Assembly: GCA_016870365.1 (NCBI GenBank)
Contig: VGBW01000002.1
Span: 1-64,000, forward strand
Direction of reading: 5' to 3'
Origin: Actinomycetota bacterium
Lineage (GTDB): Bacteria > Actinomycetota > Actinomycetes > Nanopelagicales > Nanopelagicaceae
DNA: 64,000 nt
Each line of letters starts with the position of its first letter. The stretch's first letter is position 1. A program made the position numbers and the translations under genes. Below are positions 17,123 to 34,754 of this stretch, one piece after another. The notes under the pieces were generated by a model, which was not told the DNA's origin, ran no database searches, and saw only the letters and a list, made by a program, of their open reading frames with translations.

Positions 17123-17123
17123 T

Positions 17124-18895: not shown

Positions 18896-19772
18896 GCCAG
18901 TACTTACTAATCTTCTTTCGCAAGAAATCCGCGCTCTCATGCATTTGTTCCATGCCATCTACGCCATCCTCTATGGAAATCCAGCCATCAAATCCAACAC
19001 CTTTTAAGATACTAAAAATAGCATCATAGTCATTTAGGCCCTTTCCAATCACACCATGTTTGAAAAAGGAAACATAGCCTGCACTACCACCCTCTACCTT
19101 TCGTAAGTCCTCAACGGTGCCGTTGGCCAGATATCTATCTGAGGCGTGCATAGTTACGACTCTGTGCTTAACTCGCTCAAGTAATTCAAGTGGTTCTTCT
19201 CCAGCAGCTATTACGTTTGAAGGATCGTAATTAACACCGAAAGATTTAGACTCAATACGATTCACCAAATCAACAAACACATCCATCATTTGAGCAAACT
19301 CAGGTTCGGTCCAAAAATCATCCTTATAGTGGTTTTCAATAATAAGTGTTATGCCAAGTTTTTCGGCGCTAGGAATGCAGGCATTAATTGATTCCACCAC
19401 ATAATTCATTCCCTCTTCTCTAGATATATCTTTTCTTCTTTGACCAGAAAGTACTCGACAATATTTGGCACCTAAGGCTGCACTCATCTCAATTGCATAA
19501 ATTTCTTTCTCCACCTCATTTTGACGCAATTTAGGATCTGGAATTGTAAAATCAGGTGAGGCACACATCATTGGAATTACCATTCCGGCATCTTCAACCG
19601 CTTTCTTAATCTTAGGCCAATTTCTTGAATCTTTAACATCTGCAAAATTGTTGTAAAACTCAAGTCCATCAACTCTTAACTCATCAGCTAACTTGATCCA
19701 TTCATAAATACTCATTTGACCAGCGACTAGTTGCTTAATAAACCCCTTAGGAAACGCAGCTAATTTGGGCAT
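18876..19772 (-). CDS. Sugar (phosphate) isomerase/epimerase, TIM barrel
   Basis: The 298-residue xylose-isomerase-like barrel has the four metal ligands expected for the family: Glu in LIIENHYKD (about 145-153), Asp in VNYDPSNV (about 184-191), His in VTMHASDRY (about 211-219) and Glu in ISIEDG (about 270-275). Relatives include IolE dehydratase, hydroxypyruvate isomerase and 3-ketoglycoside epimerases such as YcjR. It shares one base with the preceding SDR and is last of a five-gene minus operon. With the adjacent zinc ADH and SDR it could act on a keto-sugar. Confidence 0.75.
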   Translation of the reverse strand: MPKLAAFPKGFIKQLVAGQMSIYEWIKLADELRVDGLEFYNNFADVKDSRNWPKIKKAVEDAGMVIPMMCASPDFTIPDPKLRQNEVEKEIYAIEMSAALGAKYCRVLSGQRRKDISREEGMNYVVESINACIPSAEKLGITLIIENHYKDDFWTEPEFAQMMDVFVDLVNRIESKSFGVNYDPSNVIAAGEEPLELLERVKHRVVTMHASDRYLANGTVEDLRKVEGGSAGYVSFFKHGVIGKGLNDYDAIFSILKGVGFDGWISIEDGVDGMEQMHESADFLRKKISKYWPNYQPR

Positions 19773-20545
19773 TACTTCTCTGGGTTTCTGCCGATAATTG
19801 AAAATTGTTCAAGGTCAACAACTGAGCCAGTAAATGGTTTGGATTCATCACCTAACCAGTAAATGCAAGCAGCGGCTAGTTGTTCTGGAGTGCTCATCTT
19901 TCCAAATGGAATATTGTCTTTACCTAGCTTGTCTGGCCAATTTTCAGGTAACCCTTTCTTTATTTGATCTGCGTACTCTCGATCAGTCAAGATCCAGCCA
20001 GGATTAATTAAGTTAAACCTAATACCATCAACTCCATGTGCATTAGCTAAGTTTCTAGTCATGGTTTGTAAACCTGCTTTGCTAATACTGTATGTCAAGA
20101 GCGAAGCTTCACCGGTATAGGCATTAATAGATCCAATATTGAGGACATTTCCTTGAGTTTGTTTTAGATAAGGAAAGGCTGCTTGAATTAAGAACAAGGC
20201 TGATTGCAGATTGATTGTGATTGTCTTTGAGAATGATTTTTCACTTACCTCTAGCAGATTATTACGCTCAATAACGGCTGCATTATTAACTATTGAATCA
20301 ATCTTTCCAAAGGCTTCGATGGCGCTTGTCACAATATGCTTTGGCGAATCTAGGTTATTCAGATCTGATATACACAGATGAACATTCTTGCCCAGATGTT
20401 CTACTAATTTTTGACCAGCAATCTGGTCTATGCCATGAATAAGTACCTTTGCACCTTCTAACACGCAACGGGTGGCTAAAGCTTTGCCGATACCAGATGT
20501 TGCTCCAGTAATTACAATTACTTTGTCTTTTAGCCGCATAGTCAT
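19772..20545 (-). CDS. SDR family oxidoreductase
   Basis: This short-chain dehydrogenase has 257 residues, with TGATSGIGKAL (about 14-24), NNAAVIERNN (about 87), Ser in NIGSINAY (about 138) and YSISKAG (about 150-156). It ends FTGSVVDLEQF rather than the usual VDGG, a mild oddity. ATG 20545 overlaps the ADH stop as ATGA, so translation is probably coupled. It would oxidise a hydroxyl of a sugar or sugar acid. The substrate is unknown. Confidence 0.8.
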   Translation of the reverse strand: MTMRLKDKVIVITGATSGIGKALATRCVLEGAKVLIHGIDQIAGQKLVEHLGKNVHLCISDLNNLDSPKHIVTSAIEAFGKIDSIVNNAAVIERNNLLEVSEKSFSKTITINLQSALFLIQAAFPYLKQTQGNVLNIGSINAYTGEASLLTYSISKAGLQTMTRNLANAHGVDGIRFNLINPGWILTDREYADQIKKGLPENWPDKLGKDNIPFGKMSTPEQLAAACIYWLGDESKPFTGSVVDLEQFSIIGRNPEK

Positions 20546-21576
20546 TCAGGTTTTATGACTGACTTAAGGATCTCACCAGATTGCATCTTTTCAAATGCAG
20601 TTCGCCAATCTTTAATCGGAAAAACGCCACCAAGAACTGGTCTTAAATCTAATTTTCCGTTGCCAAGTAACCTCAATACTCTCTCCCACATTGGCCAATT
20701 GTGCGAAAATGTTCCACGCAGTGTTACATTCTTTGCCACCAATGGATCTAACGAAAAATCCAAAGGTTGTGGCCCCCAGCCAACTTTGGAAATCCAGCCA
20801 TCTGGTCTGACAACTTCCAGAGCGTGCTTTAGTGATGCGCTAACACCGGCAGCATCAACAACGCCATCCGCGCCTAAGCCATCTACGCTTTTTGCCCACT
20901 CACTAGCATCACCAATAATTACTTCACATCCATAAGCTCTTGCGATGTTTAATCGGTTTTGATCTTTGGCTAACCCAACTAATGCCACCTCAGCGCCGGC
21001 GAGTTTTGCCACAGCTGCACATAAGACTCCGATTGGTCCGGGTCCTAAAATCACAATTCGATCACCTGGTCTAATAAACCCAGGTGCGATTGTGGCGCTA
21101 TAGGCAACTGCGCACGGCTCAGTCATGGCTGCATATTCAAATGAAATACTCTCTGGAATCTTATGAAGTAGGCGAGCGGCTACCTTGGCATATCTAGTCA
21201 TACCACCATTAACCCCATACCCAAAACCCTTTCGACCTGGATCTAAGTTGTATTTGCCGACCCTAGAAAGTGGTGAAGTTGTATCAACTACTGCGGCAGT
21301 TTCAGTAACTACCTTTTGACCTACCTGCCAATTGCCCAAAGCTTCTACATTCTTACCAAGCTCAACTATTACGCCACAAAATTCATGTCCTAGCACAACT
21401 GGATAATTAACCGCCCAAGAGTTGGTGCCATGCCACTGGTGTAGATCGCTACCACAAACACTCACAGCTTCAACTTGCAAAATAACATCATCATCACCAG
21501 CAATTGGCCGCTCAACCTCTTGCAACTCAACACTCATAGGCGCTGAAGAGTAATTGACTACCGCAAGAGATTTCAT
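20542..21576 (-). CDS. Zinc-type medium-chain alcohol dehydrogenase without structural-zinc cysteines
   Basis: The 344-residue MDR keeps the catalytic zinc ligands Cys and His in SVCGSDLHQWHG (about 38-48) and HE in VVLGHEFCG (about 61-69), and the Rossmann loop LGPGPIGVLCA (about 175). The lobe that normally carries four structural-zinc cysteines is present in length but reads ETAAVVDTTSPLSRVGKYN with none. A YNLDPGRKGFGYGVNGGM motif follows. I have seen this variant as a distinct sorbitol/threonine-dehydrogenase-like subgroup, so it may be family-typical. It sits mid-operon with an SDR and an HPS-like gene, and probably oxidises a sugar alcohol or sugar C-OH. Confidence 0.8.
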   Translation of the reverse strand: MKSLAVVNYSSAPMSVELQEVERPIAGDDDVILQVEAVSVCGSDLHQWHGTNSWAVNYPVVLGHEFCGVIVELGKNVEALGNWQVGQKVVTETAAVVDTTSPLSRVGKYNLDPGRKGFGYGVNGGMTRYAKVAARLLHKIPESISFEYAAMTEPCAVAYSATIAPGFIRPGDRIVILGPGPIGVLCAAVAKLAGAEVALVGLAKDQNRLNIARAYGCEVIIGDASEWAKSVDGLGADGVVDAAGVSASLKHALEVVRPDGWISKVGWGPQPLDFSLDPLVAKNVTLRGTFSHNWPMWERVLRLLGNGKLDLRPVLGGVFPIKDWRTAFEKMQSGEILKSVIKPE

Positions 21577-21597
21577 ATTTAGCTATCGCCCTTCTCA

Positions 21598-22311
21598 CTA
21601 AATGATTCTAGGGGTGATCGGAATATCACCATAAGCATGAACTTTTTCACAAATTTTACGCAACACCTCTTCCACATCTCCAGCACCTTTTGAAAATGAA
21701 TCAGCATCAATTGCCAGGGGGGCACCAATAACAACTAGAGGTGCACCATATGATGGACAGGCAATTGCTTGTTCAAGTGAAAGTCCACCAACTGCTTGAA
21801 CTGGAACTGAAACTGAATCAACCACTTGCTTTAGTTGATCCAAAGGATTCGGTGCACGTTGTCCACTTGCTGCAATTCCTCGGCGTTCGTCATAGCCAAT
21901 ATGGTGAATAATCATTTGACAACCAAGATCTTCTAGAAGTTGAGCTCCTTTGACCATATCTTCACAGCCAAGGTTGTCGCCCATAACTGTGATTCCATAA
22001 TCTTTTGCTGCTTGTACAACACATTTGATGGTTTCTGGGTGAGATCTCGCCATAACAACCACATGAGTGGCACCAGCTTTTGCCATCATCTTAGCCTCTA
22101 GGTAGCCACCATCCATTGTTTTTAAGTCTGCAACAACTGGAGTATTTGGAAACTCTTTTCGCAAAGCTGTCACACCATGTAAACCCTCTGCCAAAATAAA
22201 TGGCGTGCCAGCTTCTAGCCAATCAACGCCAGCACGTAGCGCAGCATGCGCCATTGCAAGCGCTTCATCCATATCAATTAGATCAAGTGATACCTGAACA
22301 ATTGGTTTCAT
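21598..22311 (-). CDS. HPS / 3-keto-L-gulonate-6-phosphate decarboxylase-like protein
   Basis: The 237-residue barrel of the OMP decarboxylase superfamily has the defining DxKxxD as ADLKTMDGG (about 60-68), and VQAVGGLSLEQA near 172. Relatives are 3-hexulose-6-phosphate synthase, which adds formaldehyde to ribulose-5-phosphate, and decarboxylases of 3-keto-L-gulonate-6-phosphate. It starts directly where the RraA-like gene stops. These two families also occur as one fused protein in archaea. No PHI isomerase gene is nearby, so formaldehyde fixation is not assured. Confidence 0.75.
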   Translation of the reverse strand: MKPIVQVSLDLIDMDEALAMAHAALRAGVDWLEAGTPFILAEGLHGVTALRKEFPNTPVVADLKTMDGGYLEAKMMAKAGATHVVVMARSHPETIKCVVQAAKDYGITVMGDNLGCEDMVKGAQLLEDLGCQMIIHHIGYDERRGIAASGQRAPNPLDQLKQVVDSVSVPVQAVGGLSLEQAIACPSYGAPLVVIGAPLAIDADSFSKGAGDVEEVLRKICEKVHAYGDIPITPRII

Positions 22312-22983
22312 TTATAAGACTCCATACTTTGCAAAGGCCTCACTTGGCGCCATTCCATCTCTTACCGCTTTTCTAAATAGATCTTCCCCCGAGTTTTTCT
22401 CTTCAACTCTGGCAATTACCTCATCAATTGCATCTTTGGGCACAATAACTACTCCGTCAATATCGCCAACAATCAAATCTCCGGGATTAATTACCACACC
22501 ATCAATCTCAGCTGGCACATTATGTTCAACCACCTCATATCTTGAGTTAATATCAAGGGGAGAGGTCTGAACACTAAAGACTTTAAAACCAAGCGCGCGC
22601 ATTCTGGTGGTATCTCTAACTGGACCATCAGTTAACGCACCTGCTACCCCCTTATGTTTACATGCAGTTGAAAGCAGTTCACCCCAAAAAGCTGCTGGAT
22701 GATTTCCACCATTATTTCGATTAGATGGTGTCACATAAACCTGATCTTGCCCAATAGCATCTAATGCCTTAAGTAATCCAACATAGGGCACATCAGGAGC
22801 TGAAAAGACCGCCTCGACTCTCACTGGAAAGGCGTATCCCATCATCACACCATCGCCTGAAATCATTTCAATATCTGGTTCTAAAACCTGATTGCGCAGA
22901 TTCATGTGATCTAAACAATCAGAAGCTAAGGCTGCGGTGAAAATTCTTGAGAGGTTGTGCAAGTCATACTTATCAGCGCCCAC
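22312..22983 (-). CDS. RraA-like / 4-hydroxy-4-methyl-2-oxoglutarate aldolase family protein
   Basis: The 223-residue protein has the RraA-fold motif GALTDGPVRDTTRMRALG (about 118-135), with the Gly, Arg and Asp used by HMG/CHA aldolases for pyruvate and metal binding, and DLIVGDIDGVVIVP near 185. Members are either RNase E inhibitors or metal-dependent lyases and decarboxylases of keto acids; in a sugar operon the latter is more likely. It starts at GTG 22983 with a -10-like TAATCT seven bases upstream and no Shine-Dalgarno, and is first in the minus operon. Confidence 0.75.
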   Translation of the reverse strand: MGADKYDLHNLSRIFTAALASDCLDHMNLRNQVLEPDIEMISGDGVMMGYAFPVRVEAVFSAPDVPYVGLLKALDAIGQDQVYVTPSNRNNGGNHPAAFWGELLSTACKHKGVAGALTDGPVRDTTRMRALGFKVFSVQTSPLDINSRYEVVEHNVPAEIDGVVINPGDLIVGDIDGVVIVPKDAIDEVIARVEEKNSGEDLFRKAVRDGMAPSEAFAKYGVL

Positions 22984-22990
22984 TCGGTAA

Positions 22991-22996
22991 AGATTA
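22991..22996 (-). promoter_or_regulatory. Leaderless-type -10 element TAATCT for the RraA operon
   Basis: On the minus strand TAATCT lies seven bases before the GTG start at 22983. The transcript would therefore begin at or next to the start codon, as with the amidotransferase and aldo/keto reductase genes in this region. Confidence 0.45.
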
Positions 22997-23052
22997 GAGG
23001 GTCAGTTACCTGCACAAGTAGACTCTAAACTCCTACTTTAGGGATGAGATCC

Positions 23053-23079
23053 GTGCTTTATAACAATTGGATAAAGCAC
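23053..23079. promoter_or_regulatory. Inverted repeat between the two divergent sugar operons
   Basis: GTGCTTTAT and ATAAAGCAC are perfect 9-base arms 9 bases apart. They lie in the shared upstream region of the RraA operon and the sugar ABC operon, with no T-run. This suits a repressor operator better than a terminator. A weak TTGACG (23112-23117) further right may be the -35 for the ABC operon. No regulator gene is encoded in the locus. Confidence 0.55.
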
Positions 23080-23203
23080 CTTTACTAACCGATTGTTTAG
23101 CCATGTTCGCATTGACGGAATTACTTGGGAGCACAAGGATTAACCTCAGGTTCGACGGGTCGCGTCGTACCACTCTAGATATCAAGAAGGAATGGAGAAA
23201 TGG

Positions 23204-24490
23204 ATGCGTAAAGGTTCATTTCGTCTTGTTGCAGCTGCAGTAGCTATTGCCCTTGGGGTAAGCGCGTGTGGTTCATCATCAGATGACGCAGCAAAGACAG
23301 ACACAGAGTTTGAAATCTTTACCTGGTGGGCATCTGGTGGCGAAGCTGCTGGCTTACAGGGAATGATTGACGTTTTCACAGCACAAAATCCAGACACAGA
23401 GTTTATTAACGCTGCTATTGCTGGCGGTGCTGGTGTAAATGCTAAGGCGGTATTAACTAGCCGTCTTGAGGCAGACAATCCACCAGATTCGTTCCAAGCA
23501 CACGCTGGTATGGAACTTGATGGATATGTAAAGACTGGAAAGCTAGAGGATCTAACATCACTGTATGAATCAGAGGGATGGGACAAGGTATTCCCATCTG
23601 ATCTGATTAAGACACTTACAGTAGATGGCAAGATCTACTCAGTTCCAGTAAATATTCACCGTGCAAATGTTCTCTGGTGGAATCCTGGTGCTGCTGCCAA
23701 GGCAGGAGTCACCGCTGCACCAAAGACACTTGATGAATTCATGGGTGCACTAGATAAGTTTAAGAAATCTGGTATCGATGGAATTGCATTAGCTGGTAAA
23801 GGTGACTGGGCGATTGCTCACCTACTTGACTGGGTACTGCTTGCCACATTAGGTCCAGATAAGTTTGACGGTTTGTTTAATGGATCAACCTCATGGACAG
23901 GTCCTGAGGTGGCAGAGGCACTTAAGAACTTCCAGAAGATTCTTTCTTATGGAAATAAGGGCGCTGCTAACCTTGACTGGCCAGATGCTGGAAGACTTGT
24001 AACCCAAGGCAAGGCCGGCTTCTTCATCATGGGCGACTGGGCATCAGCACAGTGGCAATCGGATGGTTTGAAGCTAGGAACTGATTACACCTGGGCTCCA
24101 GCTCCTATGAAGGATGGCAACGTTGCTGTTTATCAATGGTTGTCAGATTCATTCACACTTCCAGTTGGTGCGCCACACCGCAACGCTGCAATCGCATGGC
24201 TGAAGGTTTGTGGTTCAAAGGCTGGACAAGATGCATTTAATCCAAAGAAGGGATCAATCTCAGCACGTACTGACTCTGATCTTTCTTTGTATGATGACTA
24301 TCTAAAGGCTGTTGCCCAGCAATGGAAGACCGACCGCTTGGTTGGATCAACTGTCCATGGTGTTACTGGCAACAACGCGCTGATGGCTGCATACAACTCG
24401 GCTGTAGGTAAGTACTTCTCTGGCGGTTTTAAAGATAACGCTGGATTAGCCAAGGATCTACAGGCTGCCTACGATGCAGGTAAGGCCTAA
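23204..24490 (+). CDS. Sugar ABC transporter substrate-binding lipoprotein
   Basis: This is the extracellular receptor of a carbohydrate importer of the CUT1 class. From ATG 23204 (GGAG six bases upstream) it has about 428 residues. The ATG at 23192 abuts AAGGA too closely. The lipoprotein signal ends GVSAC (Cys about 22) and a GSSSDD linker follows. The mature part has FEIFTWWASGGEAAGLQGMID, FQAHAGMELDGYV, WWNPGAAAKAG and a late KAGFFIMGDWASAQW, all usual for sugar-binding proteins. A hairpin after the gene separates it from the permeases, which would allow excess binding protein. Confidence 0.88.
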   Translation: MRKGSFRLVAAAVAIALGVSACGSSSDDAAKTDTEFEIFTWWASGGEAAGLQGMIDVFTAQNPDTEFINAAIAGGAGVNAKAVLTSRLEADNPPDSFQAHAGMELDGYVKTGKLEDLTSLYESEGWDKVFPSDLIKTLTVDGKIYSVPVNIHRANVLWWNPGAAAKAGVTAAPKTLDEFMGALDKFKKSGIDGIALAGKGDWAIAHLLDWVLLATLGPDKFDGLFNGSTSWTGPEVAEALKNFQKILSYGNKGAANLDWPDAGRLVTQGKAGFFIMGDWASAQWQSDGLKLGTDYTWAPAPMKDGNVAVYQWLSDSFTLPVGAPHRNAAIAWLKVCGSKAGQDAFNPKKGSISARTDSDLSLYDDYLKAVAQQWKTDRLVGSTVHGVTGNNALMAAYNSAVGKYFSGGFKDNAGLAKDLQAAYDAGKA

Positions 24491-24504
24491 GAAAGAAGTA
24501 GTTG

Positions 24505-24550
24505 CAAGTTTTGGTGGGTGAATCATTTCGCCCACCAAACTTGTTTTTGT
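24505..24550 (+). terminator. Attenuating terminator between binding protein and permeases
   Basis: CAAGTTTTGGTGGG pairs with CCCACCAAACTTG (13 pairs, one bulged T) around a 10-base loop, followed by TTTTTG. It is strong enough to end most transcripts from the binding-protein promoter. A TTGACC (24559-24564) with TGATTA 17 bases on could restart transcription before the permease gene. Confidence 0.85.
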
Positions 24551-24600
24551 TTCCTAGTTTGACCATGCCTTACCCCACTATTGATTAGGGTGTGTGAAGA

Positions 24601-25515
24601 ATGAAGAGCGCAGTTGCATCTAAACCCAGGCCGTTACGTGCTCGGATTGGAGGATTGCCCTTTTTGATTCCATCGATTTTAGCGATGGCTTTTTTTGTTT
24701 ATGGCTTAATTCTTTGGACTTTAAATATGTCCCTAACGAATAAGAACTCAGTTGGTGTTAAGGAAATTAAATATGTTGGCTTCAAGAATTATTCTGACTT
24801 ACTAAGTGATGTAACATTCACCCACGCATTCACTAATTTGGTGAAGTTTACTGTGGTCTTTATTCTCGGTGCATTGATTTCCGGATTAATCATGGCATTA
24901 CTACTGGAGAAGGGAATAAAGGGTGAGGGATTTTTCCGCTCCTTTTATCTATATCCAATGGCGATCTCATTTATCGCCATGGGAACGGTATTTAACTGGT
25001 TACTCAACTCCACCACTGGCGAGGATGCAGGTGGTATTAATTTGCTTTTACAAAAGGTGGGCTTAGGATTCTTACAAAACCCTTGGTACGCCTCGCAATC
25101 AGGTGCGATGTACGCCATCGCTATCCCTGCTGTTTGGCAGGTGGCAGGTTATGTAATGGCATTATTTTTAGCGGGCTTTCGTGGTATTTCCGATGATATG
25201 CGCCAGGCTGCTCGAGTAGATGGGGCTTCGGAGTGGCAAATCTATCGCTTAGTTTTATTTCCCCATCTAACCCCCACGTTTTTGACAGTGGTAATTATTT
25301 TGGGACATATGTCCATGAAGGTCTTTGACCTAATTGTTGGTATTAATGGTAAGGGATTTGTCACCCAAACGCTGGCAGTTTACATGTGGCAAGCTACTTT
25401 TGATAATTTTGATTACGCCAAAGGCACAGCCATCGCCTTAGTGCTATTGATCATGGTGGCGGTTCTAGTCTTGCCATACCTGCGCTATGTGAACAAGCAT
25501 GAGGAGTTTAGATGA
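24601..25515 (+). CDS. Sugar ABC transporter permease, MalF type
   Basis: The 304-residue membrane subunit has six spans, the first being LIPSILAMAFFVYGLILW (about 21-38). The coupling loop is DDMRQAARVDGASEWQIYRLVLFP (about 200-223, the EAA motif). It forms a channel with the next gene product, whose ATG overlaps its stop. No ATPase gene is present in the locus, so a shared MsmX-type ATPase encoded elsewhere must power it, which is usual for CUT1 importers. Confidence 0.88.
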   Translation: MKSAVASKPRPLRARIGGLPFLIPSILAMAFFVYGLILWTLNMSLTNKNSVGVKEIKYVGFKNYSDLLSDVTFTHAFTNLVKFTVVFILGALISGLIMALLLEKGIKGEGFFRSFYLYPMAISFIAMGTVFNWLLNSTTGEDAGGINLLLQKVGLGFLQNPWYASQSGAMYAIAIPAVWQVAGYVMALFLAGFRGISDDMRQAARVDGASEWQIYRLVLFPHLTPTFLTVVIILGHMSMKVFDLIVGINGKGFVTQTLAVYMWQATFDNFDYAKGTAIALVLLIMVAVLVLPYLRYVNKHEEFR

Positions 25516-26438
25516 GCCATACCGCAGAGCTAATCATTGCGAAACGGGTAGTTCAGAGATCCAAACGCAAATTGACTGGCAAAGATCAGTTTTGGCTGGT
25601 TTTTAAGTATGTTTCATTAATCTTTATTTGGTTCTTAGTAATTATGCCAATCTACGTGTTGGTAGTGAACTCCCTAAAGGGCGTAAAGGGTGTTTATCTA
25701 ACTACAGCTTTTCAACTACCAACTTCATTAGATTTTAGCGCGTGGAAGTTAGCATGGAGTGGGGATACAAAGACATTTCCTGGACTAAGTGCGGGCATGG
25801 GTGTCGCCATGCTTCGCACCTTAGTAATTGTGATTCAATCCTCGATCATTTCAGCAATAGTCGGATCAATAAATGGTTATGTATTTGCAAAGTGGAAGTT
25901 CAAGGGTAGTAATCTAATATTTACACTTTTCTTATTTGGCATGTTTATTCCATATCAAGCGGTGATGATTCCGCTAGTTCGGGTGGCCACTATCTCCGGG
26001 TTAAATAAGAGTATTTATGTATTGGTACTGGCCCATGTTATCTATGGCATACCTATCTGTACATTGATCTTTAGAAATTACTATGAAGCGATTCCTAATG
26101 AGTTAATTGAGGCAGGTCGAGTAGATAAAGCTTCGATGGTAAGAATTTACCGTTCGATTATCTTGCCGCTGTCTATTCCAGCTTTTGTGGTGGTGCTAAT
26201 CTGGCAATTCACCTCAGCCTGGAATGACTTCTTATTTGCGATCTTTTTGACTGGCGGTAATCCCAAGTTAGCAGTTGCTACCACCCAATTAAACTTTTTG
26301 ACTGGCTCCACTAATCAGGTCTATTACGGGTTAAACATGACGTCTGCGTTACTTGTATCCTTGCCTACCTTGATTGTATATATTTTCCTTGGACGATATT
26401 TCTTGCGTGGCTTGCTCTCTGGCTCCCTAAAGGGGTAG
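25512..26438 (+). CDS. Sugar ABC transporter permease, MalG type
   Basis: The 308-residue partner permease has a first span near 30-53, FGMFIPYQAVMIPLVRV near 155, the coupling loop NELIEAGRVDKASMVRIYRSIILPLS (about 199-224) and the typical end FLRGLLSGSLKG. The four-base overlap with the MalF-type gene implies coupled translation. The same C-terminal pattern appears in the unrelated permease remnant at 31.94 kb. Confidence 0.88.
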   Translation: MSHTAELIIAKRVVQRSKRKLTGKDQFWLVFKYVSLIFIWFLVIMPIYVLVVNSLKGVKGVYLTTAFQLPTSLDFSAWKLAWSGDTKTFPGLSAGMGVAMLRTLVIVIQSSIISAIVGSINGYVFAKWKFKGSNLIFTLFLFGMFIPYQAVMIPLVRVATISGLNKSIYVLVLAHVIYGIPICTLIFRNYYEAIPNELIEAGRVDKASMVRIYRSIILPLSIPAFVVVLIWQFTSAWNDFLFAIFLTGGNPKLAVATTQLNFLTGSTNQVYYGLNMTSALLVSLPTLIVYIFLGRYFLRGLLSGSLKG

Positions 26439-26440
26439 GT

Positions 26441-27334
26441 ATGTCAGTTGCAATCGAAGTATTTGACTCCCGGCGCAATCAGTTAGGTGAAGGTCCAACA
26501 GCAACTGGCCCAGGAAACAATATTGTGCAGTGGTGTGACATTTATGGCCAATTTGTCAGATCAAGAAATCTAATCACAGGTGAAATAGGTGAGTATCAAA
26601 CTGATGAGGCGGTTGGGTTTCAGATACCGCGAAGTAAGGGCGGAGAGATCTTGGGAACTGCCAACGGACCAGTACTACGGGATATTGATGGGCAAATAAC
26701 CAAGCTTTCCAGTAGGCAAGATGCTGATGGCCATCCAGATAAACATAAATTACGATGGAATGATGCAAAAGTTTCTCCAGATGGATATCTATTTCTAGGT
26801 TCTATGGCTTATGAAAATCAAAGTAATGAAGGTGCGTTTTATCGATTAAGCAAAGATGGCACAAAACTTAAGCGCTTGTTTGGTGATGTTGGTATCTCGA
26901 ACGGTATGGATTGGAGCAATGACCTAACCAGGATGTATTACATCGATACCCTAACTTTGAAGGTAGAGGTGTTTGATTACCATTATGGCGAGATTTCAAA
27001 CAGAAGGACGTTAGTTCAAATTGAAGAGGGGATGGGCTTTCCCGATGGCATGTGCGCTGATGCAGATGACAATATCTGGGTGGCCTTTTGGATGGGATCA
27101 GCTGTGAGGTGTTTTGATGGCAATACAGGTAAACAGTTAGCCGAGATTAAGTTACCCGTTCAAAAGGTGACATCCTGTTGCTTTGCTGGTGAAAAACTAG
27201 ATAAATTGATTATTACTTCAGCTGTTGGAAATCATGGGGAATCGATGGATTTAGATGAGTACCCCAAAGCAGGGTTTATTTTTATTGCAAACCCTGGAGT
27301 AAGTGGCAAAAAAACAACAACATTTGGAGCTTAG
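26441..27334 (+). CDS. SMP-30/gluconolactonase-family lactonase
   Basis: The 297-residue six-bladed propeller hydrolyses a sugar lactone to the open acid. Family metal ligands are visible: Glu in LGEGPTATG (about 16), Asn in HKLRWNDAKVSPDG (about 107), Asn in GISNGMDWSND (about 153) and Asp in MGFPDGMCADADDNIWVAFW (about 204), plus CCFAGEKLDKLIIT near 250. It follows the permeases by two bases. With the aldose dehydrogenase at 16.1 kb it would complete the first two steps of oxidative sugar breakdown. Confidence 0.85.
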   Translation: MSVAIEVFDSRRNQLGEGPTATGPGNNIVQWCDIYGQFVRSRNLITGEIGEYQTDEAVGFQIPRSKGGEILGTANGPVLRDIDGQITKLSSRQDADGHPDKHKLRWNDAKVSPDGYLFLGSMAYENQSNEGAFYRLSKDGTKLKRLFGDVGISNGMDWSNDLTRMYYIDTLTLKVEVFDYHYGEISNRRTLVQIEEGMGFPDGMCADADDNIWVAFWMGSAVRCFDGNTGKQLAEIKLPVQKVTSCCFAGEKLDKLIITSAVGNHGESMDLDEYPKAGFIFIANPGVSGKKTTTFGA

Positions 27335-28288
27335 TTGAGCTTCGATCTTTTCACATTTGGTGAAGTTCTATCAGTATTCATTACTGCAGATACTGAATCT
27401 GTAATGAGCGCCAAAAGTTATGAGAGAGTTACAGCCGGCGCTGAAGCTAATGTGGCGGTTGCGATTTCAAGGCTGGGTTTAAAAGCTCAATATTTCTCTA
27501 GATTCGGCACTGACCAATTAGGTTCGGTGATGATCAACGATATTAAATCTGAGGGTGTGGATGTCTCAGCCGTTAAACGAGTCTCTTCATTTTCAGCTGC
27601 AATGGTAAGAAATCCAGGAAAATCTGCCCCGGTTGAAATAAGTTACCTAAGGAAAGGATCTGCTGCATCAACTATTGAGCCAACTGATATTCCTGAGACT
27701 TTCATTTCATCATCCAGATGGCTTCATACCACCGGCATAACCTGTGCTATCTCAAAGACTGGTGCAGATACAGTCAAATTTGCCTTAGGAAGAGCAAGAG
27801 AAAGAAGGGTTAAATCTAGTTTTGATCTAAATATTCGTCGAAAACTCTGGAGTGAGAGCGAGGCAAAAGCAGTCTTAGAGCCGTTAGCTACTGATATTGA
27901 GTTACTAATTGGTGGCGAAGATGAGTATCAAGTGGTATTTGGACTTACCGATGCTAAGAAAGTACTTGCTGAGGCAAATAATCGAGGTTGCAAAATTGCG
28001 GTAATGACCAAAGGTAGCCAGGTTTTAAGGTACTCAATTGATGGCGAGTTTGACCAGTTCACACCACCAAAGGTTGTTTCGGTAGATCCCGTTGGATCAG
28101 GAGATGCCTTTACTGGTGGCACCATCGCCGGTTTACTAAGTGGGATGAATCCATTTCAAGCACTTACTCAGGGGAGTATCTGTGGTGCATCAGTTGCAAG
28201 TATGTTTGGGGATTGGACTGGCATACCAAAAGGAAAATTTGGTGTGGTTGATTCTGATGTCTTAAATAGGCTAGGGAGTTTAAAGTGA
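27335..28288 (+). CDS. PfkB-family sugar kinase, 2-keto-3-deoxygluconate kinase-like
   Basis: The 317-residue ribokinase-fold protein has AGAEANVAVAISRLGLKAQYFSRFG near the start and the PfkB signature with catalytic Asp in VDPVGSGDAFTGG (about 250-262). ILLIGGEDEY-like sequence near 190 and the early FGEVLSVF fit KDG kinases. It begins at TTG 27335 with GGAG six bases upstream, directly after the lactonase TAG. The next gene is a KDPG-type aldolase, so the pair phosphorylates and then splits a 2-keto-3-deoxy acid. Confidence 0.83.
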   Translation: MSFDLFTFGEVLSVFITADTESVMSAKSYERVTAGAEANVAVAISRLGLKAQYFSRFGTDQLGSVMINDIKSEGVDVSAVKRVSSFSAAMVRNPGKSAPVEISYLRKGSAASTIEPTDIPETFISSSRWLHTTGITCAISKTGADTVKFALGRARERRVKSSFDLNIRRKLWSESEAKAVLEPLATDIELLIGGEDEYQVVFGLTDAKKVLAEANNRGCKIAVMTKGSQVLRYSIDGEFDQFTPPKVVSVDPVGSGDAFTGGTIAGLLSGMNPFQALTQGSICGASVASMFGDWTGIPKGKFGVVDSDVLNRLGSLK

Positions 28289-28923
28289 AGACACTAGATA
28301 CATTGCTGCAAGAGAAAATGATGACCTTAGTTAGAGCAAACTCACAAAGTGAAGGACAAGCTCTAGCTGATGCTTTGGTTGAATCTGGAGTCAAGGTGAT
28401 AGAGATTACTTTGACTACTCCTGGAGCCTTAGAAATCATTGCTAACTTATTGCAAAACAAGGGATTACTCGTTGGAGCTGGCACTGTTAGAACTGTTAAG
28501 GATGTAAAGAAAGCTGAAGATGTAGGTGCAAAGTTTATTGTTTCACCAGATACCAATGAGGATGTAATAACTGCTACTAAGAAATTGAGACTCGTCTCAA
28601 TGCCAGGAGTGTGTACACCTACCGAGGTGGCTATTGCCGAAGAGAATGGCGCAGATATTTTGAAACTATTTCCGGCATCAACAATGGGACCTGGACATCT
28701 AAAGATGCTCCGTGAGCCATTTCCAAACAATCGCTGGTGCCCAACAGCAGGCATCACATTAGAGTCGGTTCCTAAGTGGTTTGAAGCCGGTGCGGATCTA
28801 ATTGGTTTAGGCGGTCCTGTAACAAAGGGTGGGGTCACTAAAGTTAACGAAAATGTAGAAGCTTTCCGTAATGCAATCAATGAGGCTAGTAAGGTAGTTT
28901 ATCGACATGAAGTTAGCCAATAA
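28285..28923 (+). CDS. KDPG/KDPGal aldolase
   Basis: The 212-residue class I aldolase cleaves 2-keto-3-deoxy-6-phospho-gluconate or -galactonate to pyruvate and glyceraldehyde-3-phosphate. Catalytic Glu lies in VIEITLTTPGA (about 39), GAGTVR near 63, and the Schiff-base Lys in ILKLFPAS (about 130). PTAGI and IGLGGPV give the phosphate site. It overlaps the kinase gene by four bases and the following SDR by 17. Confidence 0.87.
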   Translation: MKTLDTLLQEKMMTLVRANSQSEGQALADALVESGVKVIEITLTTPGALEIIANLLQNKGLLVGAGTVRTVKDVKKAEDVGAKFIVSPDTNEDVITATKKLRLVSMPGVCTPTEVAIAEENGADILKLFPASTMGPGHLKMLREPFPNNRWCPTAGITLESVPKWFEAGADLIGLGGPVTKGGVTKVNENVEAFRNAINEASKVVYRHEVSQ

Positions 28924-29665
28924 GCACATCTTTGTAACTGGCGGCGCCAAAGGTATTGGTGAAGCAATAGTTAGAGATGCTGCTGCTGAATCTGCTTCAG
29001 TGACTTTTATTGATATCGATGAGTACGCTGGAAATAGATTGGCCTCAGAACTAAGTGCTGATGGGAAAAGCGTAGCCTTCTTTAGTGCTGATGTGGCTAG
29101 TTTTGATCAGTTGAAAACTGCTTTTGAATCAGGTGTCAATAGATTTGGTGAGGTTACTGGCGTAGTTAATAATGCTGGCGTTAACTCCCATGCTGACCCA
29201 GTCAAGATGACGGACAAGGAGTGGGATGATTTTTTTGCAATTGATATGAAACCAGTTTGGTTAACGGCCAAATTGGCACTTCCTGCAATGCGAAAAGCAA
29301 AAGCAGGTTCAATAGTTAATATCTGTTCAATTCATGGTCGACTAACTTATCCAGGTTTTTTCCCATATGGTGCGGCTAAATCTGCCGTCCTTGGATTAAC
29401 TAGAAATTTGGCATTAGATGAGGGTAGGCATCAAATCAGAGTCAATGCAGTTTCACCTGGATATATATTGACTGAATTAACAAAAACTTGGCTAAGTGGC
29501 GAATCTGGTCGGCTTGAGCGAGCCAATTCAATCCAACCATTAGGAAGAATGGGAGAACCATTTGAGGTGGCTAAAGTAGTTACATTTTTACTCTCCGATA
29601 AATCAACCTATGTTAGTGGATCTGATTGGGCAGTTGATGGGGGATTAGGGGCAAGATCTGCATGA
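28907..29665 (+). CDS. SDR, first of a tandem pair
   Basis: The 252-residue dehydrogenase has FVTGGAKGIGEAI (about 9-21), VDI-type FIDIDEY after strand two (Asp, NAD-preferring), NNAGVN (about 85), Ser in ICSIHGR (about 140), YGAAKS (about 152-157) and VSGSDWAVDGG at the end. It closely resembles the next gene, including the FFPY and RNLALDEG segments. It overlaps the aldolase gene by 17 bases. Its substrate is presumably a sugar, sugar acid or lactone of the same pathway. Confidence 0.82.
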   Translation: MKLANKHIFVTGGAKGIGEAIVRDAAAESASVTFIDIDEYAGNRLASELSADGKSVAFFSADVASFDQLKTAFESGVNRFGEVTGVVNNAGVNSHADPVKMTDKEWDDFFAIDMKPVWLTAKLALPAMRKAKAGSIVNICSIHGRLTYPGFFPYGAAKSAVLGLTRNLALDEGRHQIRVNAVSPGYILTELTKTWLSGESGRLERANSIQPLGRMGEPFEVAKVVTFLLSDKSTYVSGSDWAVDGGLGARSA

Positions 29666-30420
29666 TATTGAAAGGTGAGCATTTATTTGTTACAGGTGGA
29701 GCTGCCGGCATTGGTGAAGCTTTGGTTTTAGGTGGAGTCAAGGAAGGAGCAAAGGTTTCATTTGTCGACATAGATGATGTTAGAGCAAATACTCTGGTTG
29801 AAAATTTAACTAAAGAAGGTCATCAGGTTCAATTTGCCCATGCCGATGTCTCTAAATTTGAAACCTTTAAAAATGGTTTTGATAAATTGGTATCAAGCTA
29901 TGGCCCAGTAACAGTAGCGGTCTCAAATGCCGGCAGAAATTCATATGCAGATGCGGTGGAGTACGCTGAGGAGGAGTGGAGTGATTTTTTTGCACTCGAT
30001 CTAAAATCTAGTTGGTACTTAGCCAAGTTGTGCTTGCCTGAAATGAGGAGGGCTGAATATGGCGCTATAGTGAATATTTCATCGATTCATGGCCGAATGT
30101 CTAGACCAAATTTCTTTCCATACTCAGCGGCCAAAGGTGGCATTATTGGCTTATCCAGAAATCTAGCCTTAGATGAGGGAAAGTATGGGATAAGAGTTAA
30201 TTCAGTCTCCCCAGGTACAACTGCTACACCCTTATTAAAGAGCTATATGGAGAAGTTCCCAGATGAAAAGACTCACTCACTTGCTGTGGCACCGAATGCC
30301 AGGTTTGGATCACCGGAAGAAATTGCAAATGTAGTCTTGTTTGCTCTCTCTAAAGATGCCTCATTCATTACTGGCGCAGATTTAATGGTTGATGGCGCAC
30401 TTCACGCCAGATATGCCTAA
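29662..30420 (+). CDS. SDR, second of a tandem pair
   Basis: The 252-residue paralogue of the preceding gene has FVTGGAAGIGEAL (about 9-21), FVDIDD, VSNAGRNSYAD (about 84), NISSIHGR (about 138), YSAAKGG (about 151-157) and ITGADLMVDGA. Same length and many shared segments indicate a local duplication followed by divergence, perhaps one enzyme for each of two steps or epimers. It overlaps its twin by four bases. Its stop overlaps the convergent FMN dehydrogenase stop. Confidence 0.82.
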   Translation: MILKGEHLFVTGGAAGIGEALVLGGVKEGAKVSFVDIDDVRANTLVENLTKEGHQVQFAHADVSKFETFKNGFDKLVSSYGPVTVAVSNAGRNSYADAVEYAEEEWSDFFALDLKSSWYLAKLCLPEMRRAEYGAIVNISSIHGRMSRPNFFPYSAAKGGIIGLSRNLALDEGKYGIRVNSVSPGTTATPLLKSYMEKFPDEKTHSLAVAPNARFGSPEEIANVVLFALSKDASFITGADLMVDGALHARYA

Positions 30421-31637
30421 GCTCTTATATTTACAAAATCTGGCAATAATTCAGTCAGATTTTTAACTCCCATTAGCTTCATCGCTGTCTCCATTTCAAA
30501 TCTAAAAATCTCAACCACTTTTTCAACTCCAGGTTTTCCAGCCGCCATAGCACCATAAAGATAGGCACGACCTATCAAGACCGCATCAGCCCCAAGAGCA
30601 ATTGCCGCTAAGACATCAGCCCCACTCATGATTGCGCCATCTATATAGATTTGAGGGCCATCGCCTTTTGCTCCAATTACCTCTCTTACATTTGGCAATA
30701 ACTCAAGTGGTACGACAGAGCGGTCTAATTGCCGGCCGCCATGATTAGAAAGTACAATCGCATCCACGCCGATTTTGGCTAGCTCTTTTGCATCTGCAAC
30801 TCTCTGAACTCCCTTGATTATTAACTTTCCCTGCCAGACTGATCGAAGCCATTTAACATCCTCAAAAGTAACTGCGGGATCAAATACTTTTGCAGCGATT
30901 TCAGAGAGTGGTTTATCAAAATTTCTAAAGGTTGCAAACTCAAGTGGAGCGGTAGTTAGCAAATTAAACCACCACTTAGGTTTAAGGACCATGTCGAGAA
31001 AAGTCTTCAATCTAATTCTTGGCGGCACGGTTAAGCCATTGCGCATATCCCGCCACTTAATACCACCTATCGCAGTATCAACTGTCAGCATTAATCCTTC
31101 AAAACCAGCAGATCTAGCCTCTTCAATGAATCTTAGGCTCTGATCTCTATCCCGCCACAAATAAAGCTGAAACCAACGGCGCACATTTGGAACCTGCTGA
31201 CCAATCTCGGTAGAAGAGGTTGTACCCATGGTGGACAGGCTGTAAATCAGATTGTGTGCTTCACAAACTTTTGCCACCATAACTTCGCCTTGATAATGCA
31301 TCATTCTGGTGTAGCCAGTGGGTGCAAAAATTATTGGTAGTGCCGAGGGAGTGCTCAAAACATGTGTTGAAAGGTCAATCATTGAAACATCTCTTAAAAC
31401 CCTGGGCTTGAATTCAACTCTTGAATAAATTTCCTGGCTTCTTGCATAAGAAAGTTCATCATTGGCACCACCATCGACATAATCAAAAATAGCTTTTGGT
31501 ACACGTTTTTTGGCTAGTAATCTCATTTCAGATAGATTTACCACAGACTTCAACTTGCGATCTTGAGCAGAAAATGTTGGCAAACTCCAACCAAGAAGTG
31601 GTCTTATATTTTTCCATCTTGGAAGTTGGCGCTTCAT
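30417..31637 (-). CDS. FMN-dependent 2-hydroxyacid dehydrogenase (LldD-like)
   Basis: The 406-residue barrel oxidises an L-2-hydroxyacid with FMN. It has FDYVDGGANDELSYAR (about 50-65), FAPTGYTRMMH (about 104), YSLSTMGTTS (about 131), QLYLWRDR, LTVDTA, IIKGV (Lys), and the catalytic His-Arg box LSNHGGRQLD (about 298-307), then IYIDGAIMSGADVLAAIALGADAVLIGR. Lactate is the most common substrate, and lactate is a product of L-fucose and L-rhamnose oxidation. It is convergent with the sugar operon at the right end of the locus. Confidence 0.87.
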   Translation of the reverse strand: MKRQLPRWKNIRPLLGWSLPTFSAQDRKLKSVVNLSEMRLLAKKRVPKAIFDYVDGGANDELSYARSQEIYSRVEFKPRVLRDVSMIDLSTHVLSTPSALPIIFAPTGYTRMMHYQGEVMVAKVCEAHNLIYSLSTMGTTSSTEIGQQVPNVRRWFQLYLWRDRDQSLRFIEEARSAGFEGLMLTVDTAIGGIKWRDMRNGLTVPPRIRLKTFLDMVLKPKWWFNLLTTAPLEFATFRNFDKPLSEIAAKVFDPAVTFEDVKWLRSVWQGKLIIKGVQRVADAKELAKIGVDAIVLSNHGGRQLDRSVVPLELLPNVREVIGAKGDGPQIYIDGAIMSGADVLAAIALGADAVLIGRAYLYGAMAAGKPGVEKVVEIFRFEMETAMKLMGVKNLTELLPDFVNIRA

Positions 31638-31639
31638 CT

Positions 31640-31948
31640 TTAACCCTTTAGCCTATAAGCCCGTTTTGCGGTATCTGACCAAGAATATTCTTGCTCTGAT
31701 GGCGAAGAATCTTTCGTGCATTGTTCCATAAGCTCAATGGTATCTGCATAAGTTGTCTTTATGGAGCCATGCAGATCACGCACAAACTCCTTTGCTTTCA
31801 AGGCGCCACGTAACACCTCGACAAAATAGCCTTTACCAGAGAGAAAAATCGAATTGGCAGAATCAGTGCAACTTTCATAAACGAATCTCAGGCTAACAAG
31901 TGTTCTACCGGCGCCTGGCACACCTGAAACAAAAGGAGGCCTATCACT
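31640..31948 (-). pseudogene. DUF2075-type P-loop ATPase fragment
   Basis: The frame reads VSGVPGAGRTLVSLRFVYE, then SNSIFLSG-like SANSIFLSGKGYFVEVLRGALKAK, then FVRDLHGSIKTTYAD, matching the start of DUF2075 ATPases (Walker A, the FLSGNGPLV strand, the VRDxHGF helix). The Walker Lys is replaced by Arg (GAGRT). Upstream sequence is cut by a stop at 31949, and the DEAQRAW box expected downstream is reduced to DTAKRAY near the end. About 100 residues of a family several times longer remain. DUF2075 proteins often travel with mobile or defence DNA. Confidence 0.6.
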
Positions 31949-32101
31949 TCAGCACTTGGCCGGCTTCAAGGAGAGTATGTAACTGACTTTAATTTACTTG
32001 TGGCAGGTGCTACTATGGCCGCTCTTCCCACCTTAATAATTTTTCTTATCCTTAAGCGCCAGTTCGTTTCAGGTTTGACGCTCGGTTCGACGAGGGGTTA
32101 A
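31940..32101 (+). pseudogene. C-terminal remnant of a MalG-type ABC permease
   Basis: In frame from 31940 to TAA 32099-32101 the sequence reads PITSALGRLQGEYVTDFNLL, then VAGATMAALPTLIIFLILKR and ends FVSGLTLGSTRG. This is the last transmembrane helix and tail found in nearly all MalG-type permeases. A stop at 31925 and lack of a start show it is only the tail. It lies 3 bases before a nucleoside hydrolase gene, so the lost importer probably carried a nucleoside or ribose-like substrate. Confidence 0.8.
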
Positions 32102-32104
32102 GCA

Positions 32105-32932
32105 ATGCGCAAAATCATGGTCGATACTGATATCGGCAGCGATGTTGACGATGCGATGGTGCTAACCGCTCTTCCCACCTTCACAGATTTGAAGGTTCTT
32201 GGTATCACTTGCGTATATGGAGACGTCGAACTAAGAGGGAAGATTGCGCTTAGTTACACAGGTGGTCGATATCCCGTTTTCAAGGGAGAGTCTTTACCAC
32301 TTTACGGTAGTGAGCCTTGGCACTCAGGAATCGAGGGATTCCAGCTTGAGGGCTTGAACTCATTTGCCGCTGCCGATGGAGCTATTGAGTTTCTCCTTTC
32401 TGAAGTTAACGAACATCCAGGGGAGATAGAGATACTTGCGATAGGTCCGCTCACCAACATCGCTACTGCAATAAAGAGAGATCCGAGCTGGAGTTCGAAA
32501 GTTAAAGCGCTATATGTGATGGGCGGGGATTTTGCCCGTGATTTTGCCGAACATAATTTCAAGTGTGATTCGCTCGCTGCTCAGATTGTGTTCGGGGCAG
32601 ATATGAGAATCTGGGTCATGCCACTTAATGTGACCCGACAAGTTTCGATAGAGATTGGCGACTTTGATTTCCTAGGAGATAGCGCTTTGGGCAAGGAAAT
32701 CCGGCAATGGGCAACCTATAGAAATGTCGATTTCAATAATCCGCATGACCTGATCGCCCTTTTGATGGCTCTAGAGCCTGATTTGTTTGATTTTTCCGGT
32801 CTAGGTCAAGTGACCGTCAGCGAAGGTGGCAAGTGTTCTCACGCTGAGTTAGAAAGAGGAAGACATAAGATAGTTAGCGATCTTGATGAATTGGCAGTTC
32901 GGGAGAGAGTGCTTCAGGTACTTAGGAAATGA
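32105..32932 (+). CDS. Inosine-uridine preferring nucleoside hydrolase family protein
   Basis: The 275-residue enzyme hydrolyses N-ribosidic bonds of nucleosides to base and ribose. The calcium-binding N-terminus reads VDTDIGSDVDDAMVL (about 6-20), with LAIGPLTNIATAI (about 117-129), VMGGDF and FKCDSLAAQIVF (about 155). It is slightly shorter than the usual 300-320 residues. It lies 3 bases after the permease remnant and overlaps the ribokinase-like gene by 4, pointing to a former nucleoside uptake and salvage operon. Confidence 0.85.
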   Translation: MRKIMVDTDIGSDVDDAMVLTALPTFTDLKVLGITCVYGDVELRGKIALSYTGGRYPVFKGESLPLYGSEPWHSGIEGFQLEGLNSFAAADGAIEFLLSEVNEHPGEIEILAIGPLTNIATAIKRDPSWSSKVKALYVMGGDFARDFAEHNFKCDSLAAQIVFGADMRIWVMPLNVTRQVSIEIGDFDFLGDSALGKEIRQWATYRNVDFNNPHDLIALLMALEPDLFDFSGLGQVTVSEGGKCSHAELERGRHKIVSDLDELAVRERVLQVLRK

Positions 32933-33807
32933 GTTCAAAGGTAGTTGTGGTCGGGAGCGTCAACGTTGATCTCTCCTGTTACATCGATGCAATCCCATTA
33001 GCGGGTGAGACGAAACGCGGCCTATCTTTCAAAGTCAGTTTTGGCGGAAAGGGAGCGAATCAAGCTGTGATGGCAGCTAGGTGTGGCGTCCCGGTTTCGA
33101 TGATTACAGGGTTTGGTCGAGACGAGAATGGCGAATCGTGTAAGCGCAACTTTGAAGATAACCAGGTCGACTTTTCATCCTCTTTTGACTTTCCAGAGAA
33201 CACTGGAGTTGCACATATTTGGATCGAGCAAGGTGGCGAGAATCGGATAGTGATCATTCCAGGGGCAAATGAGCGTTTGGTCGTAGATGAAGTAACAGAG
33301 CGCTTTGTCAACCTAGAGGATGTCGGGGTTGTGTTATCCCAACTTGAAACTCCTCTAGAAGTTACCGAGAGCGTGTTCATTGCCGCCCAAGAACGCGGGA
33401 TAACGACAATCTTGAATCCTGCGCCATTTAGAGAACTGACTCGAGGACTCCTAGAGAACACCGATTGGCTGGTTGTAAATGAATTGGAATATGAATTGAT
33501 GAGAAGTCCGGGATTCAAAGGCGGGTTGATAATCACACTAGGTGAGGCAGGTGCGGTGCTCCAATCTAGTGATGGTGAGAGAGTTGAGATTCCTGGGCGA
33601 AAGGTTCTTTCGATTGACACAGTTGGCGCGGGCGACTGCTTGATAGGAGCTTTTGCAGCAGGGATTTCCTTGGGGCTTTCTCCTAAAGAGGCGCTCACAT
33701 TTGGCCTCGAATGCGCCGCTATAAGCGTGACTCGTGAGGGAGCCCAAGCTTCCTTTCCCTCCCGGGAAGAGGCGGTGCGAGTGTTAGAGATAGTCTCCCG
33801 ATCATGA
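32929..33807 (+). CDS. Ribokinase-like PfkB kinase
   Basis: The 292-residue kinase shows VVVGSVNVDLSCYIDAIPLAGETKRG at the N-terminus and GGKGANQAVMAARCG (about 38-52), both classic for ribokinase. The catalytic-Asp box is IDTVGAGDCLIGAFAAG (about 225-241). It would phosphorylate ribose released by the hydrolase encoded just upstream. It overlaps both neighbours by 4 bases. Confidence 0.85.
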   Translation: MSSKVVVVGSVNVDLSCYIDAIPLAGETKRGLSFKVSFGGKGANQAVMAARCGVPVSMITGFGRDENGESCKRNFEDNQVDFSSSFDFPENTGVAHIWIEQGGENRIVIIPGANERLVVDEVTERFVNLEDVGVVLSQLETPLEVTESVFIAAQERGITTILNPAPFRELTRGLLENTDWLVVNELEYELMRSPGFKGGLIITLGEAGAVLQSSDGERVEIPGRKVLSIDTVGAGDCLIGAFAAGISLGLSPKEALTFGLECAAISVTREGAQASFPSREEAVRVLEIVSRS

Positions 33808-34754
33808 AAGCAATCTATATAACTGAGTTCGGTGGGCCGGAGGTAATGAAGTATGTCGATCTTCCAGAACCAGTCCCATCGGGTAGCCAGGTCCTTTTGG
33901 ATGTGACTGCGATTGGGATTAATTACGCAGATACGCACCAGACTGAGAATTCATATCTATCCTCACAGAAATTGCCCTTGATTCCAGGGATGGAAGTCGT
34001 GGGCAAGATGCCAGATGGGTCGCGGGTGTTGGCGCTCGCTTCGACGGGTGGATATTGCCAGAAGACGTTGGTGAATCCGAAGACCGTGATTCCACTTCCA
34101 GATGGCGTAAGTGATGGTGCGGCGCTTGCGATGATGGTGCAAGGAACGACTGCGCACATGATCCTAAAGACGATGGGACATGTGAAAGCGGGCCAGAGCG
34201 TTGTGGTTCATGCCGGCGCGGGGGGAGTCGGGTCGGTCGCGATTCAGCTGGCGAAGTTGTGGGGCGCGTATGTAATCGCGGTGACTTCATCGGATGAGAA
34301 GAAGAAGTTATGTAAGGAGTTGGGCGCAGATGCGGTTGTCGATGCCGGGGAAGCGGATTTGAAGGCGGCGTTGATTGCGGCGAATAACGGTAAGCCAGTT
34401 GATTTAGTTTTAGAGATGGTGGGCGGAAGTACCTTTGATCAATCGTTAGAGGCGTTGGCGCCATTTGGTCGATTGATTTTCTACGGTATGGCATCGCGGA
34501 GACCGCCGAAGGGTTTGCAGCCAGGAGTGTTGATGCCGAAATCCCGGACTGTTAGTGGATTTTGGTTAGTGAATGCGCTTGCAAACAAGGAGTTGATGGC
34601 AGAAGTTTTCATGGATCTATTTGGATTGATGATGAGTGGGAAGTTGAAGCCGATTGTTGGGGCGACATATCCGTTGTCGCAGGCAGCGCAGGCTCATCGC
34701 GATATGTTGGCGCGTAAGACAGTAGGCAAAATCGTACTGAATCCAGCTGAGTAA
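33804..34754 (+). CDS. NADPH:quinone reductase-like MDR
   Basis: The 316-residue zeta-crystallin-type dehydrogenase has YVDLPEPVPSGSQVLLDVTAIGINYADTH (about 15-43), lacks zinc-binding Cys/His, and has the NADPH loop VHAGAGGVGSVAIQLAKLWGA (about 132-152) followed by VTSSDEKK. It reduces quinones or enones. It overlaps the ribokinase-like gene by 4 bases. A link to nucleoside use is not obvious, and it may be a bystander at the operon end. Confidence 0.83.
   Translation: MKAIYITEFGGPEVMKYVDLPEPVPSGSQVLLDVTAIGINYADTHQTENSYLSSQKLPLIPGMEVVGKMPDGSRVLALASTGGYCQKTLVNPKTVIPLPDGVSDGAALAMMVQGTTAHMILKTMGHVKAGQSVVVHAGAGGVGSVAIQLAKLWGAYVIAVTSSDEKKKLCKELGADAVVDAGEADLKAALIAANNGKPVDLVLEMVGGSTFDQSLEALAPFGRLIFYGMASRRPPKGLQPGVLMPKSRTVSGFWLVNALANKELMAEVFMDLFGLMMSGKLKPIVGATYPLSQAAQAHRDMLARKTVGKIVLNPAE

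Follow-up and report, generated by a model that had tools for sequence, protein, structure and literature searches.

Very probable replacement of a sugar importer by a catabolic block from another genus in a small-genome actinobacterium

Near the middle of a 64,000-nucleotide stretch of actinobacterial DNA, the whole of which is referred to here as the window, the tail of a permease gene meets pieces of other genes on the opposite strand, raising the question of what was lost there and what took its place. The window, contig C2 of a draft genome of 1.29 Mb (25 contigs, 96%-complete) whose size and gene content suggest a freshwater actinobacterium of the acI type (Nanopelagicales), was compared with 23 congeners (genus g1, that of the host) and ~270 further family members, including those of g2, another genus of the same family; 296 family genomes were searched. 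The junction proves to be a 462-bp scar (31640-32101) composed of three gene remnants. At a probability of roughly 0.9, it is the right-hand end of a horizontal replacement, in which a ~17-kb g2 fragment stands in place of a CUT1-type sugar importer. The remnants are the following:

31640-31756, minus strand: remnant 1, the last ~38 codons, stop codon included, of an L-fuconolactonase-like amidohydrolase (the C-termini of the intact g2 genes in this position are 61-67% identical)
31757-31936, minus strand: remnant 2, an internal ~60-codon Walker-A segment of a DUF2075/SLFN-g3 ATPase (profile match and matches to family proteins)
31937-32101, plus strand: remnant 3, the last 54 codons, with stop, of the lost importer's MalG-type permease (congener permease C-termini)

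The original prediction, made from the bare sequence, placed two opposite-strand remnants in contact near 31,940. The contact is real, with the DUF2075 piece and the permease tail abutting within 3 bp (31934-31937), but the remnants number three. A comparison at codon level locates the inner join at ~31756/31757 and the outer one at 31934-31937. Remnants 1 and 2 are fused in one minus-strand frame, open over 31640-31939, with a GTG start at 31921, a length of 93-102 codons and an end 2 bp upstream of the start of an FMN-dehydrogenase gene. This frame had been taken for a shortened DUF2075 ATPase, an assignment that holds for ~60 of its ~100 codons, the rest being the fuconolactonase tail. Its alignment to the DUF2075/SLFN-g3 model is confined to positions 5-74 of the 354 in the profile and scores 29.5 bits against a cut-off of 24. 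In the family search, its residues 3 to ~62 share 57-62% identity with intact 626-742-aa DUF2075-type ATPases of other genera; residues ~60-98 align instead with the C-terminal end of ~285-aa amidohydrolases, at up to 63% identity. Because its two halves match different protein families, the frame is a chimera rather than a single DUF2075 gene. Assignment of the entire frame to DUF2075, its end then corresponding to the DEAQRAW motif, was rejected, as that end matches amidohydrolase C-termini. In g2, the amidohydrolase gene is intact and the same FMN-dehydrogenase gene follows it at a distance of 1-4 bp, whereas the amidohydrolase gene of the window is cut. The intact protein matches Amidohydro_2 (E=4.9e-40) and NCBIfam FuconLaconase (E=1.3e-59, below that model's cut-off). 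A general caution follows from this case: short scar ORFs can be chimeras, and family searches name them by one part only.

The permease tail was likewise identified correctly at the outset. The window at 31928-32098 matches residues 238-294 of the permease of congener G002 with 84% identity (E=2.1e-25), and the tail shares 89-95% amino-acid identity with the permease C-terminus in 12 congeners, a likeness that is, on these alignments, far beyond chance. The tail has three private changes at columns that are otherwise invariant, where each congener has 0-1, and with 54 of 294 codons left, the MalG-type remnant lacks a complete transmembrane domain with its ATPase-contacting loop. In the DUF2075 piece, the Walker-A GAGKT has become GAGRT, with loss of the catalytic Walker lysine; other conserved positions are also changed, and a complete P-loop domain with GxxGAGKT (PF09848) is absent from it. 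No intact DUF2075 ATPase was found in the host's own genome or in congeners (PF09848 over relatives and family search), and plasmid and phage collections gave only weak, distant matches to the DUF2075 frame. The Walker lysine-to-arginine change and the three private permease changes make the remnants look non-functional and released from constraint, and they are probably decaying non-coding sequence now. An open 93-codon fused frame is, by itself, compatible with expression, and its GTG start and its end just ahead of the dehydrogenase gene would suit a new small functional protein. Such a protein is nevertheless extremely unlikely, given the lost lysine, the other altered conserved positions and the absence of any full-length relative in the 296 family genomes.

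What the third remnant once belonged to is readable in the congeners, where a complete SBP-perm1-perm2 importer occupies the position of the window's scar and island. The gene order there is a 116-aa membrane-protein gene, SBP-perm1-perm2, a qor-like dehydrogenase, tRNA-Thr, tRNA-Met, GT and murB, and the window retains both flanks of this locus. The left-hand one is:

14419-14769, minus strand: host left-flank gene for a 116-aa membrane protein, which precedes the SBP gene in congeners (tblastn and blastn to L033, L085-L088, L090, L094 and L095; 80% nucleotide identity to G001)

The window lacks the importer's binding protein, perm1 and ~240 codons of perm2; host homology resumes at 31937, inside perm2, so that only the last 54 codons are kept. 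The removal of an importer was thus rightly called, the full version standing upstream of the oxidoreductase/tRNA-Thr/tRNA-Met/GT/murB block in congeners. Nor does the short permease frame occur as a conserved, free-standing gene, since in the relatives, wherever an undamaged contig continues beyond it, the stretch forms the 3' end of a complete permease gene. No close copy of the importer was found elsewhere in the 96%-complete genome, the best other matches being 30% for the permease and 26% for the binding protein.

The same locus varies in other congeners as well. Two contigs of genome G005 (L032:888-3243 and L090:4591-6023) carry different reduced forms of the importer: on one, perm1 and most of perm2 are gone, and on the other, the leader is joined directly to the last 17 perm2 codons. 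This genome is ~6% contaminated and may therefore hold two strains. A permease lesion in G001 was rejected as a parallel loss, the lesion being a run of N. Between the permease and qor genes (cargo loci L085:3755-4358, L095:7951-8670 and L086:1112-2521), the cargo consists of RelB and a YafQ/ParE-like toxin in G016 and apparently G015, of a secreted peptidase-like protein in G013 and of a hydrolase in G002 and G005; in several congeners this slot is empty. To the left of the importer, G015 encodes a 363-aa protein without a Pfam match and a MUG113-type protein, possibly defence cargo (L095:2148-4289).

The lost system had been called a nucleoside/ribose importer, the absence of which would have left a hydrolase and a kinase without their transporter. 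In G002, a full importer is indeed found directly upstream of the nucleoside hydrolase gene, the place where the original prediction proposed to look. However, only G002 (complete importer) and G005 (reduced) pair the two; in most congeners the importer has no hydrolase beside it. Two Bmp-family binding proteins, of the PnrA type and thus of a nucleoside-associated group, remain on contig C8 of the host genome. The SBP of the lost importer, studied in its congeneric copy, has AcbH structures as its nearest solved relatives (E=2e-56), with other sugar-binding proteins also near; no NCBIfam equivalog scored over its cut-off for this SBP, which was not placed in a nucleoside-binding family. AcbH binds galactose (PMC3364876), and a galactose-like sugar would be the more likely substrate. 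The nucleoside assignment is accordingly not supported, and the notion of an orphaned hydrolase and kinase is weak, Bmp-type importers having been kept. An adjacent enzyme, it appears, poorly predicts the substrate of an importer.

The space vacated by the importer is filled by an island, whose principal features are listed here with that of its left-hand border:

14797-15063, minus strand: g2-type copy (xenolog) of a gene of 86-89 aa that occurs across the family, truncated at its C-terminal end by the breakpoint (identities to g2 versus g1 copies)
14831-31756, unstranded: the island, contiguous L-fucose-type catabolic and transport genes (collinear with G109:C2; also G113, G116 and G024; G112 80.6% over 9.5 kb)
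30417-31637, minus strand: FMN-dependent L-lactate dehydrogenase-like gene, the last complete island gene (PF01070, E=1.6e-118; 83% identity to G109/G113)

Against G109:C2 of genus g2, the island forms a single collinear block of 17,007 aligned bp at 75.6% nucleotide identity, with every gene in the same order; G113, G116 and G024, the last a complete genome, show the same over most of the parts compared. In the left half, the closest sampled genome is G112, at 80.6% nucleotide identity over 9.5 kb, about half the block. Two island proteins (20542-22311) are 95-97% identical to those of G112 and their neighbours 84-90%, which suggests further recombination within the island. Pfam content includes an aldo-keto reductase, FAA hydrolase, hydroxyacid dehydrogenase, epimerase-like TIM barrel, SDRs, SMP-30 lactonase, KDPG aldolase (by sequence), PfkB kinase, an ABC importer and the L-lactate dehydrogenase-like enzyme, and presumably fits non-phosphorylating catabolism of the L-fucose type. 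Elsewhere in the host genome (G000), on contig C1 (L131:229-4191), a fuconolactonase-like gene occurs intact together with one for an enolase-superfamily dehydratase; these could cover for the truncated lactonase and possibly complete the island pathway.

Several observations bear on the source of this block. A marker protein tested was found in none of the 23 congeners, whereas 15 g2 genomes have it, as do some members of other family genera. The xenolog at the left border is 56-71% identical to g2 copies and 34-42% to g1 copies, with 39% identity to the host's own resident copy (C7:57915-58136). A g2-like flank gene in a genome that also has its own copy on C7 makes a g2 chromosomal segment the simplest source. 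Together, the full importer in congeners and the g2-collinear block in its place point to an inter-genus transfer that deleted the importer. A simple deletion of a nucleoside/ribose importer from an otherwise resident region would suit the hydrolase arrangements of G002 and G005, but it leaves the 17-kb foreign block at the site unexplained and sits poorly with both the importers that have no hydrolase neighbour and the galactose-binding nearest relative of the SBP; this reading is very improbable. An assembly or binning chimera, with g2 sequence misjoined into a g1 contig, is conceivable in a draft of 25 contigs whose g2 relatives presumably share its habitat. It would, however, call for two independent misjoins at both flanks of one importer locus, with a decayed 180-bp DUF2075 piece in between, and the island differs from every sampled g2 genome covered by the collinearity comparison, so that this explanation is highly unlikely.

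The two joins of the transferred block can be placed closely. The left-hand one is:

14793-14810, unstranded: left breakpoint, in the intergenic/promoter region of the lost SBP gene (blastn to G001 ends at 14793; g2 alignment; donor block from 14831)

Donor-type sequence begins within ~20-45 bp of the end of host homology. Both ends of the donor block lie inside genes, the tail of the 86-89-aa gene on the left and the fuconolactonase-like gene on the right, where the order is donor block, 180-bp DUF2075 piece and host permease stub. The longest direct repeat between the island ends is 7 bp, with a mean of 8.1 bp in shuffled sequence, and inverted repeats do not exceed those of the shuffles. 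With respect to homologous recombination in the flanks, no shared repeat was found at the breakpoints, but the adjacent qor segment does look recombined. No integrase or transposase was matched among the island proteins scanned with Pfam.

A tRNA-like 3' fragment (14362-14430; 91% over 46 bp to tRNA-Arg(cct)) overlaps the end of the 116-aa membrane-protein gene. It is partly common to congeners, and the sequence to its left differs in each, as at the border of a variable region. An intact tRNA-Arg(cct) gene lies at 1936-2011 of the same contig. The 3' copy was rejected as an attachment site for the island, since it and the intact tRNA do not stand in the order expected of a simple element and the ends of the island lie elsewhere. 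Insertion of a site-specific integrative element or transposon into the permease gene could draw on this tRNA-like remnant and on the accessory content that varies among congeners, to the left of the importer as well as between permease and oxidoreductase. Set against it are the lack of an integrase or transposase match among the island proteins scanned and of a terminal direct repeat, and the fact that both ends cut through genes with ~2.5 kb of host DNA gone, unlike a clean insertion; the chances of such an element are likewise very slim.

Replacement by a g2 fragment remains the preferred reading, and illegitimate joins are inferred because no shared sequence was found at the ends. A large, contiguous g2 fragment (~17 kb) would have joined the chromosome at the CUT1-type importer locus by illegitimate joining, with the host losing ~2.5 kb or more. 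The DUF2075 piece may have been captured as filler when the ends were joined, or it may be what is left of an earlier insert. A separate exchange, by recombination within the genus, probably accounts for the hydrolase-kinase-oxidoreductase segment. This segment and its genes are as follows:

32057-34751, plus strand: probable second recombinant segment, of clade-B type in a clade-A backbone (block-wise identities)
32105-32932, plus strand: IU-type nucleoside hydrolase (PF01156, E=7.9e-43; orthologs in the same place in G002 and G005, 62-63% identity)
32929-33807, plus strand: ribokinase-like PfkB kinase (PF00294; ribokinase TIGR02152, E=1.4e-76, below its cut-off)
33804-34754, plus strand: qor-like zinc-binding-family dehydrogenase, the conserved right neighbour of the importer (77-96% identity in congeners)

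The second segment spans the last ~45 bp of the permease tail, the hydrolase, the kinase and qor, its left limit resting on those 45 bp. By nucleotide identity, G001/G004/G014/G021 are the nearest genomes (79-94%) for the left flank, the first 120 bp of the permease stub, the tRNA region, GT and murB. For qor they are G013/G016/G002/G005 (84-92% versus 73-83%), and the final 45 bp of the stub tend the same way. The spacing from permease stop to hydrolase start is that of G005, and the clade-A genomes have no hydrolase there. The kinase is absent from the permease-qor slot in the congeners examined, and a promoter scan upstream of the hydrolase gave nothing above chance; with the importer, the three genes may have lost the promoter that lay ahead of it. 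The stretch of ~32.06-34.75 kb is thus probably the product of a second, intra-genus exchange. Position 31,940 had been proposed as the right edge of the accessory region, and the inter-genus island does end there (31937). Since the second segment appears to be of a different clade than its flanks, however, recombinant DNA probably does not stop at 31.94 kb, foreign-clade DNA reaching to ~34.75 kb.

Taken as a whole, the locus represents ordinary genome turnover, unusually well resolved in that both breakpoints are still readable. It offers a base-resolved case of a small-genome actinobacterium changing its sugar diet, a foreign catabolic block having apparently been taken up in place of a resident importer. 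It is tempting, if rather doubtful, to suggest that in this genus the importer locus left of qor/tRNA-Thr/tRNA-Met serves repeatedly as an exchange slot, in which whole sugar import-catabolism modules are swapped between genera, here a galactose-like importer for an L-fucose-type module with its own importer. If so, the carbon niche would have changed in one step.

The individual parts have clear counterparts in the relatives. The intact L-fucose-type cluster of g2 (G109:C2, G113:C64, G024:C1) matches the island gene for gene and in order over 17 kb; what the window has lost of it is most of the fuconolactonase-like gene and the end of the flank gene of 86-89 aa. The CUT1-type importer of g1 (for example L033:512-3753) has the same neighbours and a tail that is 89-95% identical, of which the window holds the last 54 codons only. 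In the DUF2075/Schlafen group 3 helicase ATPase (PF09848; for example L134:6837-8717), the Walker-A segment is 57-62% identical, but the window has ~60 of 626-742 codons and the lysine of GxxGAGKT is replaced. At a larger scale, replacement and additive flexible genomic islands have been defined, with the replacement type typically being of glycocalyx-modifying content (PMC10872708), and gene-coding deletions were found most often to overlap transporter genes (PMC9426551). Like the replacement-type islands of streamlined freshwater and marine bacteria (PMC10872708), the present locus differs in content between relatives, has host genes replaced between conserved flanks and shares its contig with a tRNA-Arg(cct) gene. 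Unlike them, it has catabolic and transport content rather than glycocalyx genes, its joins look non-homologous and its source is a contiguous block of another genus. Replacement of transporter and catabolic modules in flexible islands is already known in aquatic bacteria, and the case described here is a clear new example of it, not a new kind.
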